Shown here piece after piece: positions 9,408-21,079 of a stretch of 21,079 nt of DNA. Position 1 is the first letter of the stretch. The number at the start of each line of letters is the position of its first letter. The DNA comes from a virus. Where the stretch lies: IMG/VR virus record IMGVR_UViG_3300046459_000316, positions 1-21,079 of that record; one strand, given 5' to 3'. The translations under genes were made by a program, and so were the position numbers. The notes under the pieces were generated by a model, which was not told where the DNA came from, did no database searches, and worked only from the letters and a program-made list of their open reading frames with translations.

Positions 9408-10958
9408 CTAGCCGATCAGTGGTCCACCTCCGAGCCGGGAGATGGAGTGGGTGGCGATGGCGGCGGCGACCACCGCGTCGATGGGGCCGCTGCTCTCCTT
9501 GCGCGAGAACCGGAAGGCGCCGTCCTGGCCGACCGGGCGCCTGGCGAGGCCCCCCATCTCGGTGTCCAGCAGGGGATCATCCGCCGCGAGCATGCCCGCG
9601 AGCACCCGCTCGGTGAAGTCCATGGAGACCGTCACCATCTCGCCCATCTTCAGCGGTTCCCATGGCAGGCCGGACTCCTGTGCAGCGCGGGCGAAGGCGG
9701 CGGCTGCTCCGCTGAAAGCGTCGTAGCTGATGCTCAGTACCTGGTCGATGGCCGGGAAGGTCTCGACCTCCCTGATGATCCGCGCCGCCGCCAGCGGTTC
9801 ACCGTCGGATCGCCGGAGGTCGGCATGCACCTCGACGCCGACCCGTCCGTCGTCGCGGATACCGGCGACCGCGATGGTCGCCCGCTCCCATCCCGGCTGG
9901 ATGTCGACACCCAGGGCATATGGCCCGTGGAGGCCTTCGAGCGGCGCCACCACCCGGTTGGCGGCCCAGGCACCGGGCGGGAAGGCACTATCGGCCACTA
10001 CGTCGACGAAGTGGTTCAGCCGCTCGCGCTGCCACCCTTCCCGCGGCCACTTGCGATGCTCGTTCGCGATGGCCGTCCGCACCAGACGTCCGTCGCCGAG
10101 TCCTGGATTCGCCTTGGCCAGCTCGACCCAGTCGCCCCTGGTCAGCTCACGCCTGCCACCGGTCGAGTCATATCCGACGTCGGGGTCGTCCGTCTCCCAC
10201 CACACACCATAGAGCGATGGGTCGGGCTTCTCGTCGCCGACAGCTAGCCGCCGCAACCGGTCGTATCGCTCTCGCAGGACGACGCTGTCGGCGTGTCCTG
10301 CCGTGGAGGTCAGCAGCAGGAGGGCATTCCTCTGCGCGGACTGGGTCGGCTCGACCGCCTCCATCATCACGTTATCGCGTTGGGTCAGGACCTCGTCGAA
10401 GGCGATAGCGCCGAACGAATATCCACGGGCGCTGCCTGGTTCACTCGTGAGGGTGTCGAAGAACAGGCCCTCGGTCTCGATGCCCAGCCAGCGCGACAGC
10501 CGCACCGGAGGGTATATGCGGGGTTCGCCCCGGGCACGGTCGGGACCCTTCGTCAGCCTCGGGATAGCCTTGAGATCCCCATAGACCGCCCGATAGATGA
10601 TCCGGGCCTGGATACCATCGTGCGCTGCCGACCGGATGTCTCGCCAGGCGCGGAATGGCCCGACTGTGCGCCCGACATCGAAGAGCCAGCCGTAGAACGA
10701 GCGGACGATGACGCTCTTGCCGTTCTGCCTGGCGGTCGAGAACAGCGCCTCCCGGTGGATGAGGTCGCCATCCTTGCCGTGGCGCAACATCTTGATGACC
10801 ACGTACGCCTGCCATGGTCCGAATACCAGGTCGAGCTCCCGGCTGGCCCACTCGATGACCGCCGGACCGTAGCTGCCGGTCACGCCAGGCGGGTCGGGGG
10901 TCTCCCAGCGGGGCTGGAGGCGCTTGGGAAGGGTGGGCGGCCGGTAGCCGCGCTTCAT
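9408..10958 (-). CDS. Terminase large subunit
   Basis: The product packages DNA, using an ATPase motor and a nuclease. With the 10958 start it is 516 aa. The Walker A-like motif STARQNGKS is at residues 74-82, Walker B AIAFDEV at 184-190, and the coupling motif LLTSTAG at 215-221. The likely nuclease acidic residues are D352 (GVDIQPG), D413 (SISYDAF) and D494 (GPIDAVVA). The start is uncertain: in-frame ATGs at 11096, 10991 and 10958 all lack a good Shine-Dalgarno sequence. I prefer 10958 because it leaves the phased repeat arrays almost wholly non-coding. The longer forms would read through repeats whose 11-bp period cannot reflect protein repeats. Confidence 0.92.
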   Translation of the reverse strand: MKRGYRPPTLPKRLQPRWETPDPPGVTGSYGPAVIEWASRELDLVFGPWQAYVVIKMLRHGKDGDLIHREALFSTARQNGKSVIVRSFYGWLFDVGRTVGPFRAWRDIRSAAHDGIQARIIYRAVYGDLKAIPRLTKGPDRARGEPRIYPPVRLSRWLGIETEGLFFDTLTSEPGSARGYSFGAIAFDEVLTQRDNVMMEAVEPTQSAQRNALLLLTSTAGHADSVVLRERYDRLRRLAVGDEKPDPSLYGVWWETDDPDVGYDSTGGRRELTRGDWVELAKANPGLGDGRLVRTAIANEHRKWPREGWQRERLNHFVDVVADSAFPPGAWAANRVVAPLEGLHGPYALGVDIQPGWERATIAVAGIRDDGRVGVEVHADLRRSDGEPLAAARIIREVETFPAIDQVLSISYDAFSGAAAAFARAAQESGLPWEPLKMGEMVTVSMDFTERVLAGMLAADDPLLDTEMGGLARRPVGQDGAFRFSRKESSGPIDAVVAAAIATHSISRLGGGPLIG

Positions 10959-11016
10959 GAGAGCCGGGTGAGTAGTTCCTGAGATCAACATGAGCGCTTC
11001 ATGAGAGCCGGCTGAG
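10958..11016. repeat. Array A: six TGAG motifs at exact 11-bp spacing
   Basis: TGAG begins at 10958, 10969, 10980, 10991, 11002 and 11013, so every step is 11 bp. Two longer near-repeats (10951-10972 and 10995-11016) differ at one base in 22. All motifs face the same way and would lie on roughly the same face of the helix. The terminase start codon at 10958 overlaps the first unit. Confidence 0.9.
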
Positions 11017-11099
11017 GCGAGCCACTCTCGCGATTTGTTGGAACGAACCCCCCACAGGTGTCTGGGCACCCCCCGGACCAGAAAAGTGACCCCCATCCG
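11017..11099. other. GC-rich spacer between the arrays, candidate cos/pac cutting region
   Basis: This 83-bp segment lies between the two arrays and contains two CCCCCC runs around an imperfect dyad (GGTG at 11057-11060, CACC at 11067-11070). Its site just upstream of the large terminase is where cos sites are often found in siphoviruses. No cleavage site can be assigned from the sequence. Confidence 0.3.
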
Positions 11100-11158
11100 T
11101 GAGATAAACGTGAGTCTGGGGTGAGTGTTTCATGAGAGTCGAGTGAGACTCACATGAG
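11100..11158. repeat. Array B: six TGAG motifs at exact 11-bp spacing
   Basis: TGAG begins at 11100, 11111, 11122, 11133, 11144 and 11155, again with steps of exactly 11 bp and the same orientation as array A. The longer segment 11126-11147 matches the 22-bp repeat of array A at 18 positions. The array ends 2 bp from the HNH stop codon. Confidence 0.9.
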
Positions 11159-11159
11159 T

Positions 11160-11444
11160 TCAGCGCCATCGCGACCGTCGAGCGCGAGGCAGCACGATCG
11201 ACGGTCGGGGCGTGATGGCCGGCGTGCCAGCCACGTCCTTGTCCTGTCGCTGGCTGTTGCATGAGCGATGCGCGGCACGGAGGTTGGCGTCGCCATGTCC
11301 GCCGCCCTGCGAGCGCGGCACGAGATGGTCGAGCGTATCGGCGCCAGGCTTGCGACAGATCCAGCAGACGCCGCGATCACGGGCGAGGATGCGCCGACGC
11401 GTACGCTGCCAGCCCGGTGGGCGGTCAGTGAACGGCATGGTCAA
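11160..11444 (-). CDS. HNH endonuclease
   Basis: This 94-aa protein carries a complete HNH module: CWIC at residues 27-30, the core LDHLVPRSQGG at about 38-48, a Gly/Asp/Asn stretch (GDANLRAAH) and HRSC. The CxxC and HxxC pairs form the structural zinc site, and the His-Asn-His set cleaves DNA. Small HNH proteins beside terminase genes are common in cos phages, where some are needed for genome cutting and packaging. The start is TTG at 11444, overlapping the previous stop (TTGA), or ATG at 11438. Confidence 0.88.
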   Translation of the reverse strand: MTMPFTDRPPGWQRTRRRILARDRGVCWICRKPGADTLDHLVPRSQGGGHGDANLRAAHRSCNSQRQDKDVAGTPAITPRPSIVLPRARRSRWR

Positions 11445-11926
11445 GCACCCGTCCTGCCTGCCCTCGACGAGTCAGCGTCCCCTCGCCGGTCTATCGCTGT
11501 TGGTCGATAACGTAGCACACGCCCTCGGGGCTCCCTGCGGTACAGCCCATGCAGCAGCTCGAGGGCTACCTGGACATAGGCACGACGTACGGGCTGCACC
11601 ATGCCGAGGCTGCGACATGCGCTGTCCCAGTCACCCCCGATACAGGCTGTCCGGTACAGCACCTGTGCCATGAACGGCTCGTCATGCGCCAGCTCCCGCA
11701 GGGCAGCACGCATGGGGAAGCGGTAGTCCTCGTCCCTGTCGAGGGCACCCGGCTCGCCCAGGTACGTCGCCATCTCGTGGCTGAGCACGGGGTAGTCGCC
11801 ACCCGTCGAGAGGCGGATCGGCACATCCGCCCGGACGCCATCGAGGAACCAGCGCAGGAGGTCACGCGGCCTCGTGGGCGGTGGGTGGTATGGCGCCAGG
11901 CGCAGCTCGGTGACGTCGACGCTCAT
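11441..11926 (-). CDS. Hypothetical protein with possible HTH (candidate small terminase or late regulator)
   Basis: This 161-aa protein starts at ATG 11926, overlapping the previous stop (ATGA). The N-terminal part is unrecognised. Residues ~85-125 (MAQVLYRTACIGGDWDSACRSLGMVQPVRRAYVQ and following) are helical and look like a helix-turn-helix unit, in a region that might bind DNA. A basic C-terminus follows. No small terminase is otherwise seen in the window. Being next to HNH, the TGAG arrays and the large terminase makes a packaging role plausible, or a sigma-like late regulator. Both are inference. Confidence 0.55.
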   Translation of the reverse strand: MSVDVTELRLAPYHPPPTRPRDLLRWFLDGVRADVPIRLSTGGDYPVLSHEMATYLGEPGALDRDEDYRFPMRAALRELAHDEPFMAQVLYRTACIGGDWDSACRSLGMVQPVRRAYVQVALELLHGLYRREPRGRVLRYRPTAIDRRGDADSSRAGRTGA

Positions 11927-12195
11927 GCCGTCTCCGAGCGGCGTACGTACAGCCGTCCTCCCCCGGCGCTGGTCACGGCGCCCGTGCCCACGAAGCGGTA
12001 TGACCAGACACCCGGCTGGTCGATGGGCACATCGGACGAGTACACGCCGCTCGTGCCATGGGTGACGGCGGGCGTGGAGCTCGTGCCGTCGGGCTTCTTG
12101 ACCGTCAGCACCGCCGTCGTGTCGGTCGGCGCGCCGGCCGCGTTGCTGAACGTGGCCGTCAGGCGGACCACGTCACCGATGTCGTACTCACTCAT
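11923..12195 (-). CDS. Small Ig-like beta-sandwich virion protein
   Basis: This 90-aa protein begins MSEYDIGDVVRLTATFSNAAG and continues with a strand-loop pattern (TAVLTVKKPDG, GVYSSDVPIDQPGVWSYRF). This is the layout of an Ig-like or bacterial macroglobulin-like domain, with 'D.pG.w.y.w.g' near the end. Similar one-domain proteins are found among phage structural genes. ATG 12195 overlaps the stop of the repeat protein by 8 nt and follows GAGG with a 6-nt spacer. The precise role is unknown. Confidence 0.65.
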   Translation of the reverse strand: MSEYDIGDVVRLTATFSNAAGAPTDTTAVLTVKKPDGTSSTPAVTHGTSGVYSSDVPIDQPGVWSYRFVGTGAVTSAGGGRLYVRRSETA

Positions 12196-13213
12196 CTGTC
12201 ACCTCGACCGCGCCCACGCCGGCCGGCTCGCGGGATAGCGAGCCCACGGCCGATGCCGTGGTGGTGGATGCACCGGCAGACGTGACGCCCATGCCCAGCG
12301 AGCCGACCCGCGACGAGGCGATCAGCACCGTGCCCGCCAGGACGTCGGACAGCGTGACCGTGCCCTTGACGTTGGGCGGCACCACGGCGACCGTCGGCAC
12401 GCGGCCCGTCAGCACCAGCGACGCGGTGGGCACCGTCACCAGCTGGTTGGCGATGGCCGTGATGACGGGCGCGAATGTGGCCAGGACGAGCGCCCGGACG
12501 GGCACCGTGACGACCTGGTTGGCCGTCGCTGTCACGACCGGCGCGAACGTGGCCAGCGTCAGGGCGCGGACGGGCGGGATGATGGTCTGGCCCGCGCCAC
12601 CCGTGACCAGCGGCGGGAACGTGGTGAGGGTGAGCGTCGCGGTGGGCGGTGTCGCGACCGCGCTGGCCCCTGCCGTGATGACCGGGGCGAGACCCGTGAG
12701 CGTCAGGGCGGTGACAGGCGGTATGACCGCGAGCCCGATGACCGGCACGAGCCTGGTCAGCGCCAGGGCCGTCGTGGGCGGCGTGACCAGGACCGGCGTC
12801 AGGACCGATGGCGCCAATGGGGCGAGGGTCAGCGATGCGGTCGGCACCGTGACCAGGCGCGGCGTGCTGATGACCGGGGCGAGGCCCGTGATGGTCAGGG
12901 CGGCCGTCGGTGGCGTGGCGACCTGGTTGGCCGTCGCGCTCGCCGTCGGGGCGAACGTCGTCAGCGTCAGGGTCGCTGTCGGCACCGTGACCGTCTGGTT
13001 GACCGCGACGTTGGCCGAGGGTGCGAACGTGGTCAGCGCCAGGGCCGTCGTGGGCGGGCTGACGGCCAGGCCGAGCACCGCCGCGAAGGTGGCCAGCACG
13101 AGGGTCGCGGTGGGCACCGTGACCAGTTGGTCGCCGCCCGACGCAGCCGGGATCAGGGCAGGCGAGAGGCGCTGCCCTGATTGCGGGTTGGGCGGCCGGT
13201 GGAAGATGCCCAC
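12188..13213 (-). CDS. Repeat-rich structural protein with eleven ~22-residue repeats
   Basis: This 341-aa protein starts at GTG 13213, 2 nt after the previous stop. Residues ~31-276 are eleven degenerate repeats of 20-25 residues. A typical unit reads VTVPTATLTLTTFAP followed by a variable turn of 6-9 residues. The alternating hydrophobic/Thr pattern suggests one or two beta-strands per repeat, with a conserved P-[TV]-x-[AR]-L core. The C-terminal 65 residues are non-repetitive (GTVTLSDVLAGTVLIASSR onward). I associate repeats of this kind with uncharacterised phage virion proteins, but can name no function. A fibrous or surface role is likely from the repeats and neighbours. Confidence 0.7.
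   Translation of the reverse strand: MGIFHRPPNPQSGQRLSPALIPAASGGDQLVTVPTATLVLATFAAVLGLAVSPPTTALALTTFAPSANVAVNQTVTVPTATLTLTTFAPTASATANQVATPPTAALTITGLAPVISTPRLVTVPTASLTLAPLAPSVLTPVLVTPPTTALALTRLVPVIGLAVIPPVTALTLTGLAPVITAGASAVATPPTATLTLTTFPPLVTGGAGQTIIPPVRALTLATFAPVVTATANQVVTVPVRALVLATFAPVITAIANQLVTVPTASLVLTGRVPTVAVVPPNVKGTVTLSDVLAGTVLIASSRVGSLGMGVTSAGASTTTASAVGSLSREPAGVGAVEVTDE
12386..13123 (-). repeat. Coding repeats of the 341-aa protein
   Basis: About 740 bp encode eleven degenerate repeats (unit about 60-75 bp). Copies differ in length and sequence, with segments such as GTGACCGTGCC recurring. The divergence argues for an old protein-level repeat, not a recent DNA amplification. Confidence 0.75.
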
Positions 13214-18480: not shown

Positions 18481-19632
18481 TCAGGATTTGTGCCCATTGG
18501 CAGTCTTGTTGGCAGCGATGTTCGCGCGCCCGTCGCCCAGTACCTCGTCCATGGCGTCCGCTGCCTTGCGCATGGCCTGCTCGGCGATGCCGCCGTAGCG
18601 GTCGACGGTGGTGGCGATGGTGGAGTGCCCCAGCGCCGACATGACGAGCCGGAGGTCGCCGCCCGACGAGTCGAGCATGAGCGACGCCGCGGTATGGCGA
18701 CTGGCGTGGAAGACGAGCCGTGGCAGGCCGGCAGCCACGAGCGCATCGGAGAACGTCCTGGACACCCACGACGGCTCCAGCGGCTTGCCGTCGGCCTTGG
18801 TGAACACCAGCACCGCGGACGCGGCACGGACACGGTGCTCGGCCAGGGCATCGACGGCTCGGCGTGACAGCGAGAGCGTGCGGCGGGCCCGGTCGGTCTT
18901 CGGCTCCTCGAAGTCCCAATCGACCTTGGACACCCGGCGCAGGCTCCCCGCGATGGTGAGCCGGGAGCGGGCCAGGTCGATGTCCGACCAGCGCAGGGAC
19001 AGGATCTCGCCGCGCCGCATCCCGGTCGTCAGGGCGAGGACCCAGATGGCGTAGTGCGGGTGTTGCCGGTGGCCGTCGAGGAATCCGCGCACCTGCGCCG
19101 CTGACAGGCGCGCCACGGGCCGCTGGGGCACGCGGACGGCATCCACCAGCGCCGCGACGTTGCGAGCCACCAGCCCGCGTTTCTCGGCGTCACGCAGGGC
19201 GCTGCGCAGTGCGGTGTGGACGTGCTTCGCGGTCTGCGGCGCCCTGCCCGAGCGGAGCACGGCGTTCATAACGTCCTGGACGTCGTCGGGTGTCAGCTCG
19301 ACCAGCGGGATGTCTCCGATGAGCGGCAGCGCCAGCTGGTGGGCGTAACGGTAGCGCTCGAGGGTCCGGGGACGGATGCGATGCCGGGCGACCTCGGATC
19401 GCCAGCGAGCCAGGTACTCAGCGACCGTCTCGCCGCTCGGCGGGGTCGAGGAAGGTGTACCGGATGGTGCCTGTGCGAGCTTCGCCCTGAGCTTCCGGCG
19501 TGCCTCCGCCATCGAGAGGGTGGAGGTCCCGCGGACCACTGTCCCGTCCTGCCTTCGGCCGAGCGCGACGTGCTGGCCGGAGGCTGTCACGTACTGTGAC
19601 CCCGTCCCCCACGCCCTGCGCGGCTTGTCCAC
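18481..19632 (-). CDS. int: Tyrosine integrase
   Basis: This site-specific recombinase integrates the phage at attB. With GTG at 19632 it is 383 aa; that start is preferred because GGAGG lies 6 nt upstream, while the ATG at 19683 has poor spacing. The N-terminal part (GTGSQYVTASGQ, then ARRKLRAKL) is an arm-binding domain; a core-binding SAM-like domain follows at ~70-165. The catalytic domain has Arg206 (TTGMRRGE), Lys245 (PKTDRARR), His309/Arg312 (HASRH), His336 (LGHST) and Tyr346 (VDRYGG), all present. It ends just before the attP core and overlaps the xis-like gene out of frame. Confidence 0.95.
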   Translation of the reverse strand: MDKPRRAWGTGSQYVTASGQHVALGRRQDGTVVRGTSTLSMAEARRKLRAKLAQAPSGTPSSTPPSGETVAEYLARWRSEVARHRIRPRTLERYRYAHQLALPLIGDIPLVELTPDDVQDVMNAVLRSGRAPQTAKHVHTALRSALRDAEKRGLVARNVAALVDAVRVPQRPVARLSAAQVRGFLDGHRQHPHYAIWVLALTTGMRRGEILSLRWSDIDLARSRLTIAGSLRRVSKVDWDFEEPKTDRARRTLSLSRRAVDALAEHRVRAASAVLVFTKADGKPLEPSWVSRTFSDALVAAGLPRLVFHASRHTAASLMLDSSGGDLRLVMSALGHSTIATTVDRYGGIAEQAMRKAADAMDEVLGDGRANIAANKTANGHKS

Positions 19633-19792
19633 TGCCGCCCTCCACCCAGCTCCGGGCCACGCGGATGGCGCCCCGGTCGCCATGGCTCCGCAGGACGGGG
19701 ATGCTACCAGCGGCGATGCCGCGCCGGATGGTGGTGTCGCTGAATCCGGTCAGCTCGGCCGCCTCGCGGATGGTGATCCACAGGCGGGTCAC
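19418..19792 (-). CDS. Excisionase-like HTH (MerR/HTH_17-type) DNA-binding protein
   Basis: GTG 19792 overlaps the ASCH gene's stop (GTGA). Residues ~4-50 form an excisionase/HTH_17-type domain: WITIREAAELTGFSDTTIRRGIAAGSIPVLRSHGDRGAIRVARSWVE, here quoted as the pieces REAAELTGFSDTTIRR and IPVLRSHGDRGAIRV. Such proteins direct phage excision or regulate int. The remaining ~70 residues share DNA with int in another frame and have biased, low-complexity composition, so the functional part may be only the first half. The frame runs to 19418 without a stop, giving a 215-bp overlap with int, unusually long for an xis/int pair. Confidence 0.75.
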   Translation of the reverse strand: MTRLWITIREAAELTGFSDTTIRRGIAAGSIPVLRSHGDRGAIRVARSWVEGGSGQAAQGVGDGVTVRDSLRPARRARPKAGRDSGPRDLHPLDGGGTPEAQGEARTGTIRYTFLDPAERRDGR

Positions 19793-20127: not shown

Positions 20128-20342
20128 AGGGGATGGTCCCAGGGGTCATCGTCGGGCGGGTCGAGCTCGGCCGCGATGGCGACCGTGAGTCGGTGGATGA
20201 CGTGCGACAGGCGGCGCACCACGCGGTCGGCCTCCGGCTCGCCGAGGCCCCGGACCGACGCCATGATCTCGAGATGGGCACGGCGCCTCCGCTCGTACTG
20301 CGCGGCGGCGTTCATGCCCATGCGGTCGGAGTGCTCGGTCAT
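20124..20342 (-). CDS. 72-residue hypothetical protein
   Basis: ATG 20342 overlaps the methyltransferase stop (ATGA) and the stop overlaps the ASCH start (GTGA), which fixes both ends. The protein is helical and charged (AAAQYERRRRAHLEIMASVRG, then EADRVVRRLSHVIHRLTVAIAAEL) with an acidic end (DPPDDDPWDHPL). I do not recognise it. Its place in a tightly coupled early operon suggests an accessory role. Confidence 0.6.
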   Translation of the reverse strand: MTEHSDRMGMNAAAQYERRRRAHLEIMASVRGLGEPEADRVVRRLSHVIHRLTVAIAAELDPPDDDPWDHPL

Positions 20343-21016
20343 GCGGCCTGCGCTCTCAGCGCAGCCATCAGCTGGTGTCCGATGTACTCGGTATAGGCGG
20401 GCGGGATGGCCTCGCGTAGCTCGTCGGTCGTCATCCAGTCGATGCCCATCGCGGGGCCCCACTCGTGGGTCTCGGCGCCGTTGCCATACACCTGGACGGT
20501 CGTCGCTCGCCGCTTGTTGCCTACGCCATGTCCGCCCTGGGTCCAGCCAGTCCAGTAACGGCGCTCCGTGAAGCGGTCGTGGCGGCATTCCAGGCCGAAC
20601 AGAAACACCGGGGACTCAAAGAGTCGGTGACGTCGTAGCGGCCGGTCGAAGCTGGTCCCGCAGAGCCGGACCGGTGACAACATCGGGGCACCCACCACGT
20701 TCTCGATGACGTAGGGGACCCCAGACTGCCGCAGACGTTCGCGCATTCGCTCGATGAGTCGCGGATGCTCGTAGGCCCGGCCGAGTGTCTCGTTGGTGCT
20801 GCGAGGGCCAGCGGCATACGCCTGGCACGGTGGGCTGGCATGGATGGCGTCGAAGCCGTCCAGCGGGAACGTCAGGGCGTCTGCCTGGTGGAACTCGAAG
20901 GGATAGTGCGGCTGGGGGTTGATGTCCACGCCGACCACGTCGAAGCCTGCGCGGCTGTAGCCCATGCCAGCACCACCAGCACCGCAAAAGAGGTCGAGCA
21001 GCCGAGGCTTGTTCAT
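20339..21016 (-). CDS. C5-cytosine DNA methyltransferase (phage type)
   Basis: This 225-aa enzyme should transfer a methyl group from S-adenosylmethionine to cytosine C5. The motifs occur in order: motif I FCGAGG (10-15), motif IV PPCQ with catalytic Cys64, motif VI ENV (105-107), motif VIII RRHRLF (128-133) and motif X AIPPAYTEYIG (203-213). The target-recognition region (~135-190) is short, as in small phage orphan methylases. No matching restriction enzyme is seen, so it probably protects phage DNA against host restriction. ATG 21016 is chosen because it overlaps the upstream stop (ATGA); an ATG at 21061 would lie within that upstream frame. Confidence 0.92.
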   Translation of the reverse strand: MNKPRLLDLFCGAGGAGMGYSRAGFDVVGVDINPQPHYPFEFHQADALTFPLDGFDAIHASPPCQAYAAGPRSTNETLGRAYEHPRLIERMRERLRQSGVPYVIENVVGAPMLSPVRLCGTSFDRPLRRHRLFESPVFLFGLECRHDRFTERRYWTGWTQGGHGVGNKRRATTVQVYGNGAETHEWGPAMGIDWMTTDELREAIPPAYTEYIGHQLMAALRAQAA

Positions 21017-21079
21017 GCCGTGCGCCGTGCCATCAGGCGGTCGCCGACGAGCCATCGCCATGTCTCGTCGTAGTCGTCG
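21013..21079 (-). CDS. C-terminal end of an upstream gene (cut by the right edge)
   Basis: A frame entering from the right edge encodes DYDETWRWLVGDRLMARRTA and stops at 21013. Its TGA overlaps the methyltransferase ATG (ATGA), like most junctions here. Only 21 residues are visible, so no function can be given. Confidence 0.5.
   Translation of the reverse strand, partial: DDYDETWRWLVGDRLMARRTA

Follow-up and report, generated by a model that had tools for sequence, protein, structure and literature searches.

We analysed the window, a 21,079-bp stretch covering positions 1 to 21,079 of the IMG/VR virus record IMGVR_UViG_3300046459_000316, around two blocks of a phased TGAG motif. The genes for p161, the HNH endonuclease, the terminase large subunit (TerL), portal, capsid and head-tail adaptor are all on the minus strand. 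Read along that strand, the order is p161, HNH, the TGAG arrays, terL, portal, capsid and head-tail adaptor. The features are:

9408..10958, minus strand: terL, terminase large subunit, 516 aa from the ATG at 10958 (phrog_9, E=1.5e-54)
10958..11016, plus strand: block 1, six TGAG in 11-bp steps (10958, 10969, 10980, 10991, 11002, 11013)
11017..11099, no strand: spacer between the blocks, 83 bp, predicted cosN region
11100..11158, plus strand: block 2, six TGAG in 11-bp steps (11100, 11111, 11122, 11133, 11144, 11155)
11160..11444, minus strand: HNH endonuclease, 94 aa, just before the predicted cos site (Pfam HNH, 5.2e-9)
11441..11926, minus strand: p161, a 161-aa protein with a possible helix-turn-helix near its C-terminus, no family match
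18481-19683: integrase

The terL start preferred in the initial annotation is backed by alignment with relatives, which match from near residue 1 of the 516-aa form. A longer frame of 562 aa is unlikely on the same grounds, and the differences found upstream in L126 (IMGVR_UViG_3300047321_000622, a record whose sequence is almost the same as that of the window) would for the most part be non-synonymous in it. A query with the portal protein gave no confirmed relatives. The window probably derives from a temperate tailed phage, the integrase being the reason to call it temperate.

No small terminase (TerS) was identified in the window, and none lies between HNH and terL. A MerR-like protein at 19418-19792 gave a weak TerS match only (phrog_57, 0.0011). 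The protein p161 was considered for this role and set aside, with no matches in Pfam, PHROGs or phage records and an unusable AlphaFold model (pLDDT 44); a weak relative is encoded at the same place in L141 (E=0.002). It is kept as an unproven candidate for the array binder. Two further proteins were noted in passing: a 341-aa protein near the packaging genes (12188-13213), with many degenerate repeats resembling VTVPTAxLxLTTFAPVxxxxANQ, and a weak DNA cytosine methylase-like protein at 20339-21061 (Pfam below cutoff) that has 43-46% identical relatives in L118 and L051.

The 12 TGAG positions given in the initial annotation, all on one strand and in exact 11-bp steps, were confirmed. The first TGAG of block 1 overlaps the start codon of terL and the last TGAG of block 2 ends 1 bp short of the HNH stop codon, with 87 bp between the facing motif starts (11013 and 11100). 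When all 4-mers at periods 8-15 were considered, the two TGAG runs of six were the only runs of at least 4 in the window, while 60 shuffled windows reached a maximum run of 3 in 54 cases and of 4 in 6 cases. The three-unit TGAG pattern was matched 8 times against 0.01 expected from dinucleotide shuffles. TGAG itself is invariant (12/12); the runner-up column is a C two bases before it, present in 8/12 units.

The 7-bp spacers within the blocks have a mean identity of 0.30-0.32, which is near random, so the blocks are not simple tandem repeats and a tandem-repeat origin could be ruled out. A coding origin was likewise rejected: 11 is not a codon multiple, and by our reading the L126 changes upstream of 10958 are mostly non-synonymous in the extended 562-aa frame. 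In their spacer letters, block 1 units 2, 3 and 4 match block 2 units 6, 8 and 9 at 5/7, 5/7 and 4/7 positions, respectively, and unit 0 shares 6 letters with unit 4 and 5 with unit 9. This likeness between units makes a common ancestor of the two blocks probable, with units gained or lost in whole 11-bp steps. The spacers would then have drifted while TGAG and its phase did not.

The spacer between the blocks had been described as holding a dyad, which folding analysis did not support: the predicted DNA fold is no better than that of shuffles (z 0.72), and the one hairpin is a 5-bp stem at 11017-11031. Rfam searches gave no match. No sigma-70-like promoter was found in 10800-12000, an AT-rich unwinding tract is absent beside the blocks, and TGATC does not occur in 10958-11158.

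For the position of the genome ends, relatives of terL were collected with a four-sequence alignment, giving 33 contigs of 49-100% identity that reach the terL start region. Twenty of the 33 stop at 0-171 bp upstream of terL, one stops just within the gene, and the 12 that run on all have HNH next to it. The ends are not scattered: 12/20 fall 1-6 nt before one conserved motif, TCGRAA (GCGAAA or TTCG in a few). L126 is among these, stopping mid-spacer at window position 11051 with GGGGTTCGTTCC, and 11 further contigs begin 1-6 nt before the homologous TCGRAA/GCGAAA motif. The relatives have no repeats at their contig ends, so repeats cannot explain where they stop. The ends of L145 and L147 map inside the intact contig L146, between CCCCCCAAAAT and CCTCGGAATAAACCG, and that of L153 maps inside the intact L152; both comparisons confirm a placement at that conserved point. 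Two further features of the window are:

11051..11052, minus strand: predicted left end of the genome (nick in the terL-coding strand), between CACCTGTGG and GGGGTTCGTTCC, at the L126 contig end
11078..11086, minus strand: CTTTTCTGG, conserved cos-core element, YTTTTCTRGG-like in relatives

In the HNH-terL gap of the relatives, the YTTTTCTRGG-like element comes first and the cut motif follows. An element like CTTTTCTGG was found between HNH and terL in L129, L140, L141, L144, L146, L152, L154, L156, L161 and L165, as well as at the right end of the 38,103-bp record IMGVR_UViG_3300046809_000255 (L128, also handled as L204, L205 and L134). The L128 contig begins about 15 nt ahead of terL, runs to 64 bp past HNH and has the appearance of a full-length linear cos genome from this phage group, with terL at the left end and HNH at the right. 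It has no terminal repeats, which fits a loss of 3′ overhangs. Another contig, L164, opens (positions 1-80) with an inverted repeat that is almost perfect (GGTCACGCTGGGCGCC... and its complement) and that probably arose as an artefact of assembly or amplification where a molecule ended.

Taking contig ends as a proxy for virion ends, a genome end within the 83-bp spacer is strongly indicated, and from the ends of L126 and its relatives the two blocks very probably flank cosN. The predicted nick lies 35 bp from block 1 and 48 bp from block 2. As at HNH-associated cos sites, HNH is directly before and the terminase directly after, and the gap between them holds genome ends that are unique as far as contig ends report them. 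Their single fixed place argues for cos and against headful (circularly permuted) packaging. No contig carrying the other half of the L126 site was found.

Among the relatives, the arrays are less widely distributed than the cos core. L126 keeps 5/6 TGAG of block 1, with one lost, and its array region has changed more than terL (4/96 versus 12/1548). Relatives with 49-73% identical TerL have the core and no arrays in the gap. Not one three-unit TGAG array occurs anywhere in 20 relative records, and the whole L128 genome lacks a phased array at period 11 of any 4-mer. The conservation of the motif upstream of terL that the initial annotation predicted therefore fails in the window's own relatives. 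Since these keep the core without the arrays, the latter are lineage-specific, optional at the level of the TerL family and unneeded by that family as such. Any requirement for them would lie in a component that differs from one lineage to the next, for example a small terminase. This patchy presence would also be expected of a lineage-specific element with no part in packaging (for example one recognised by a satellite, a host DNA-bridging protein or a methylase). Such an element would hardly be placed on both sides of the cut, nor recur independently beside terminases of unrelated families as described below, and we regard this explanation as very unlikely.

Outside the window's own relatives, double arrays recur upstream of unrelated terminases. 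IMG/VR was scanned for two three-unit TGAG blocks in 11-bp steps, 55-85 bp apart, and blocks with a spacer identity of 0.6 or more were treated as tandem. The scan returned 44 stretches, with 13 matches left after tandem removal, 12 of them non-coding. All 12 belong to one unrelated phage group and lie upstream of its TerL gene. The reversed-motif control (GAGT at 11-bp steps) gave 17 stretches and 0 non-tandem matches. A control with TGAG at period 12 gave 17 non-tandem matches, 14 inside long frames; coding repeats contaminate this control, 12 being divisible by the codon length.

The array-bearing group has a phrog_38 TerL, 57-98% identical to the L193 protein. Its blocks have 3+4, 4+3, 5+3 or 3+3+3 units, lie 0.3-0.55 kb upstream of TerL in both orientations, and occupy the intergenic region between the divergently transcribed terL and other genes. 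Arrays were present in all phrog_38-group contigs seen except ct2KA10, which has a 77% identical TerL and no arrays, though its N-terminal helix-turn-helix looks alike. The TerL of this group (622 aa at L193:6910-8778, with relatives in L195, L188, L064, L021 and L077) carries an N-terminal helix-turn-helix that resembles a small terminase (phrog_4044, E=5.9e-5 in L195).

A third unrelated group, with a phrog_2 TerL, carries blocks of 3+4 units some 1.2 kb upstream; in a member whose TerL is 50% identical, the blocks have 4+5 units in the opposite orientation. The isolates SSU5 and ST13-OXA48phi12.3, which are close to this group, have no arrays. Across the long contigs G055, G061, G033, G036, G042 and G058, three-unit arrays are confined to the region upstream of terL, and G055 has an additional copy about 1.4 kb upstream. 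Neighbouring blocks are 70-81 bp apart in most of the phrog_38 group and 72 bp apart in the phrog_2 group, against 87 bp in the window. By tblastn, no array-binding protein common to the window and the other array-bearing phages was found. Two phrog_38 relatives with about 45% TerL identity, FlowerPower and Manuel, carry terminal repeats (253 and 276 bp, respectively) directly upstream of terL, which is compatible with a location of the arrays at genome ends in the phrog_38 group. Inside its 253-bp repeat, Streptomyces phage FlowerPower has ATGTC four times in 10-bp steps (L196:144-181, with a copy near 46024); at periods 10-12 its genome has no other phased 4-mer array as strong as this.

These distributions also bear on two regulatory or replicative readings. 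The arrays could form a phased operator, on which a phage transcription regulator would control late genes or terL, the cos neighbourhood being incidental. They do abut the terL start codon, and the phrog_38-group arrays sit between divergent genes. Moreover, an SPP1-like terminase complex represses its own operon (PMC4737164), so the roles can overlap. We nevertheless find an operator unlikely: 10800-12000 lacks a sigma-70-like promoter, array orientation flips within one TerL group, which is unusual for a promoter-tied operator, and the blocks bracket the mapped genome end symmetrically.

Alternatively, the blocks could be replication-origin iterons, bound by an initiator protein that starts replication near the genome end. 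Many other TGAG arrays with 11-bp steps in IMG/VR are located within replication-initiation genes, next to a (CCCTTC)n tract. Their motif is TGAGnnYTCnn (L003:6628, L009:904, L043:5186, and on the minus strand L065:1594, L097:4052 and L175, among others). The gene in L003 matches phrog_1408 with E=1.4e-74, and the arrays in genes of this type are probable origin iterons. Because their motif is longer, whereas TGAG alone is conserved in the window, we treat them as a separate phenomenon; they still keep the origin reading alive. That reading is quite unlikely for the window, which has no rep gene near the blocks (the neighbours are HNH and terL) and no AT-rich unwinding tract beside them. An origin split by cosN would also be unusual.

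Packaging, the guess made in the initial annotation, is partly supported. For it speak the cos end mapping into the spacer by contig ends, with HNH and terL on opposite sides, the double arrays upstream of unrelated terminases, and the constancy of TGAG and its phase over drifted spacers, as well as the gene order of HK97 and Scamander, the geometry of P1 pac and the domain spacing of small-terminase rings, all compared below. Against it count the lack of conservation among the window's own relatives, the stronger change of the L126 array region with its lost motif, the absence of arrays in ct2KA10 and the failure to identify a TerS in the window. On balance, we consider it fairly likely that the two blocks are recognition arrays for a packaging initiator at a cos site. 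Such an initiator would be multimeric, most likely a small terminase or its replacement, and would read TGAG once per helical turn. On either flank of cosN, six DNA-binding domains could then be aligned along the same helical face over about 66 bp. The pair of nucleoprotein complexes so formed would bring TerL and the HNH protein to the 83-bp spacer for cutting of the cohesive ends, and packaging would start into terL. The arrays, their exact phase and their recurrence beside unrelated terminases are observed, whereas the kind of protein that binds them, the wrapping of DNA around it and the roles of the two blocks are inferred.

A broader proposal is offered tentatively, as a possibility we would not yet bet on. 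The arrays may represent a general, previously undescribed class of packaging-initiation site, in which sequence-specific 4-bp motifs recur exactly once per helical turn in two blocks that enclose the cut, and which serves several terminase families that are not related to one another. They could be the trace left in the genome by DNA that wraps around initiator domains arranged as a ring or filament. Whether small terminases read DNA by wrapping or by threading has long been debated. The structure of the HK97 small terminase in complex with DNA dates from 2024 (PMC11331095). A natural site that presents the same 4-bp word twelve times along one face of the helix, around the predicted cosN, would make a ready substrate for testing sequence-specific wrapping, and the phased-motif signature can be used for locating packaging sites and genome ends in uncultured phages.

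Outside packaging, the layout resembles parC of plasmid R1, where two sets of five 11-bp repeats surround a promoter. The period and the arrangement in two sets are the same as in the window, and a ParMRC-type partition (centromere) site was considered accordingly. The window differs in having no par genes, no promoter between the blocks and a motif of 4 bp only. With no ParM- or ParR-like gene among the proteins searched (from an incomplete genome), an integrase present and the blocks located at the predicted cos, a partition site is extremely improbable.

In lambda, cosB holds multiple sites for gpNu1 (TerS) beside cosN, as is proposed here for the window. The lambda sites are three longer R sites on one side of cosN together with an IHF site, whereas the window has twelve 4-bp sites on both sides. 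HK97-type cos sites (HNH gp74, TerS gp1, TerL gp2) share with the window the order HNH, cos, terminase, and in the recorded linear ends of HK97 and of Microbacterium phage Scamander, HNH is at the right end and the terminase at the left. The gp74 HNH protein stimulates cos cleavage (PMC9410871), and HK97 TerS reads a short site with the DNA in its channel (PMC11331095). HK97 lacks an 11-bp array. In the window, terL follows directly after the predicted cos with no TerS gene between. Near the HK97 right end (L203:39623-39676), about 60-110 bp from the cos end, ATCA occupies 4/6 positions at a 10-bp step, a weak array and the only such match in that genome at periods 10-12.

The wrapping model for the SPP1/SF6 pac site is also pertinent. 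In SF6, a single DNA-binding domain of the small terminase spans 3-5 bp, and adjacent domains in the rings of small terminases are spaced by about one helical turn (PMC4737164). If this model were made sequence-specific, one would expect a 4-bp motif to recur every 11 bp; SF6 binding itself is nearly sequence-independent and no comparable array has been described there.

The closest known design is the pac site of P1 (HEX4/HEX3, PacA/PacB), in which short direct motifs, 4+3, flank the cut near the terminase genes. TGATCA occurs at 90722, 90729, 90741 and 90756, and TGATCR at 90852, 90864 and 90875, around annotated cuts at 90804-90811; the pacase binds these hexamers (PMC10028697). The clusters are 96 bp apart in P1 and 87 bp in the window, where the 6+6 TGAG enclose a predicted cut near the middle. 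Steps are irregular in P1 (7, 12, 15; 12, 11) and exactly 11 bp throughout the window. In P1 the motif is also a Dam site and IHF binds between the clusters; the window has a 4-bp motif and a cos-type site beside HNH. The P1 combination of TGATCA/G hexamers with Dam sites, an IHF site between them and PacA/PacB is not that of the window, whose motif is TGAG, and the fixed place of the contig ends does not conform to headful packaging either. Given the irregular steps, the other motif and the headful packaging of P1, the window is not classed as a P1 pac site. In layout it would work like one, with a short direct motif clustered on each side of the predicted cut. The initial annotation knew of no described packaging site with this exact two-times-six layout; P1 pac, with its two motif clusters on either side of the cut, provides a precedent for the arrangement.
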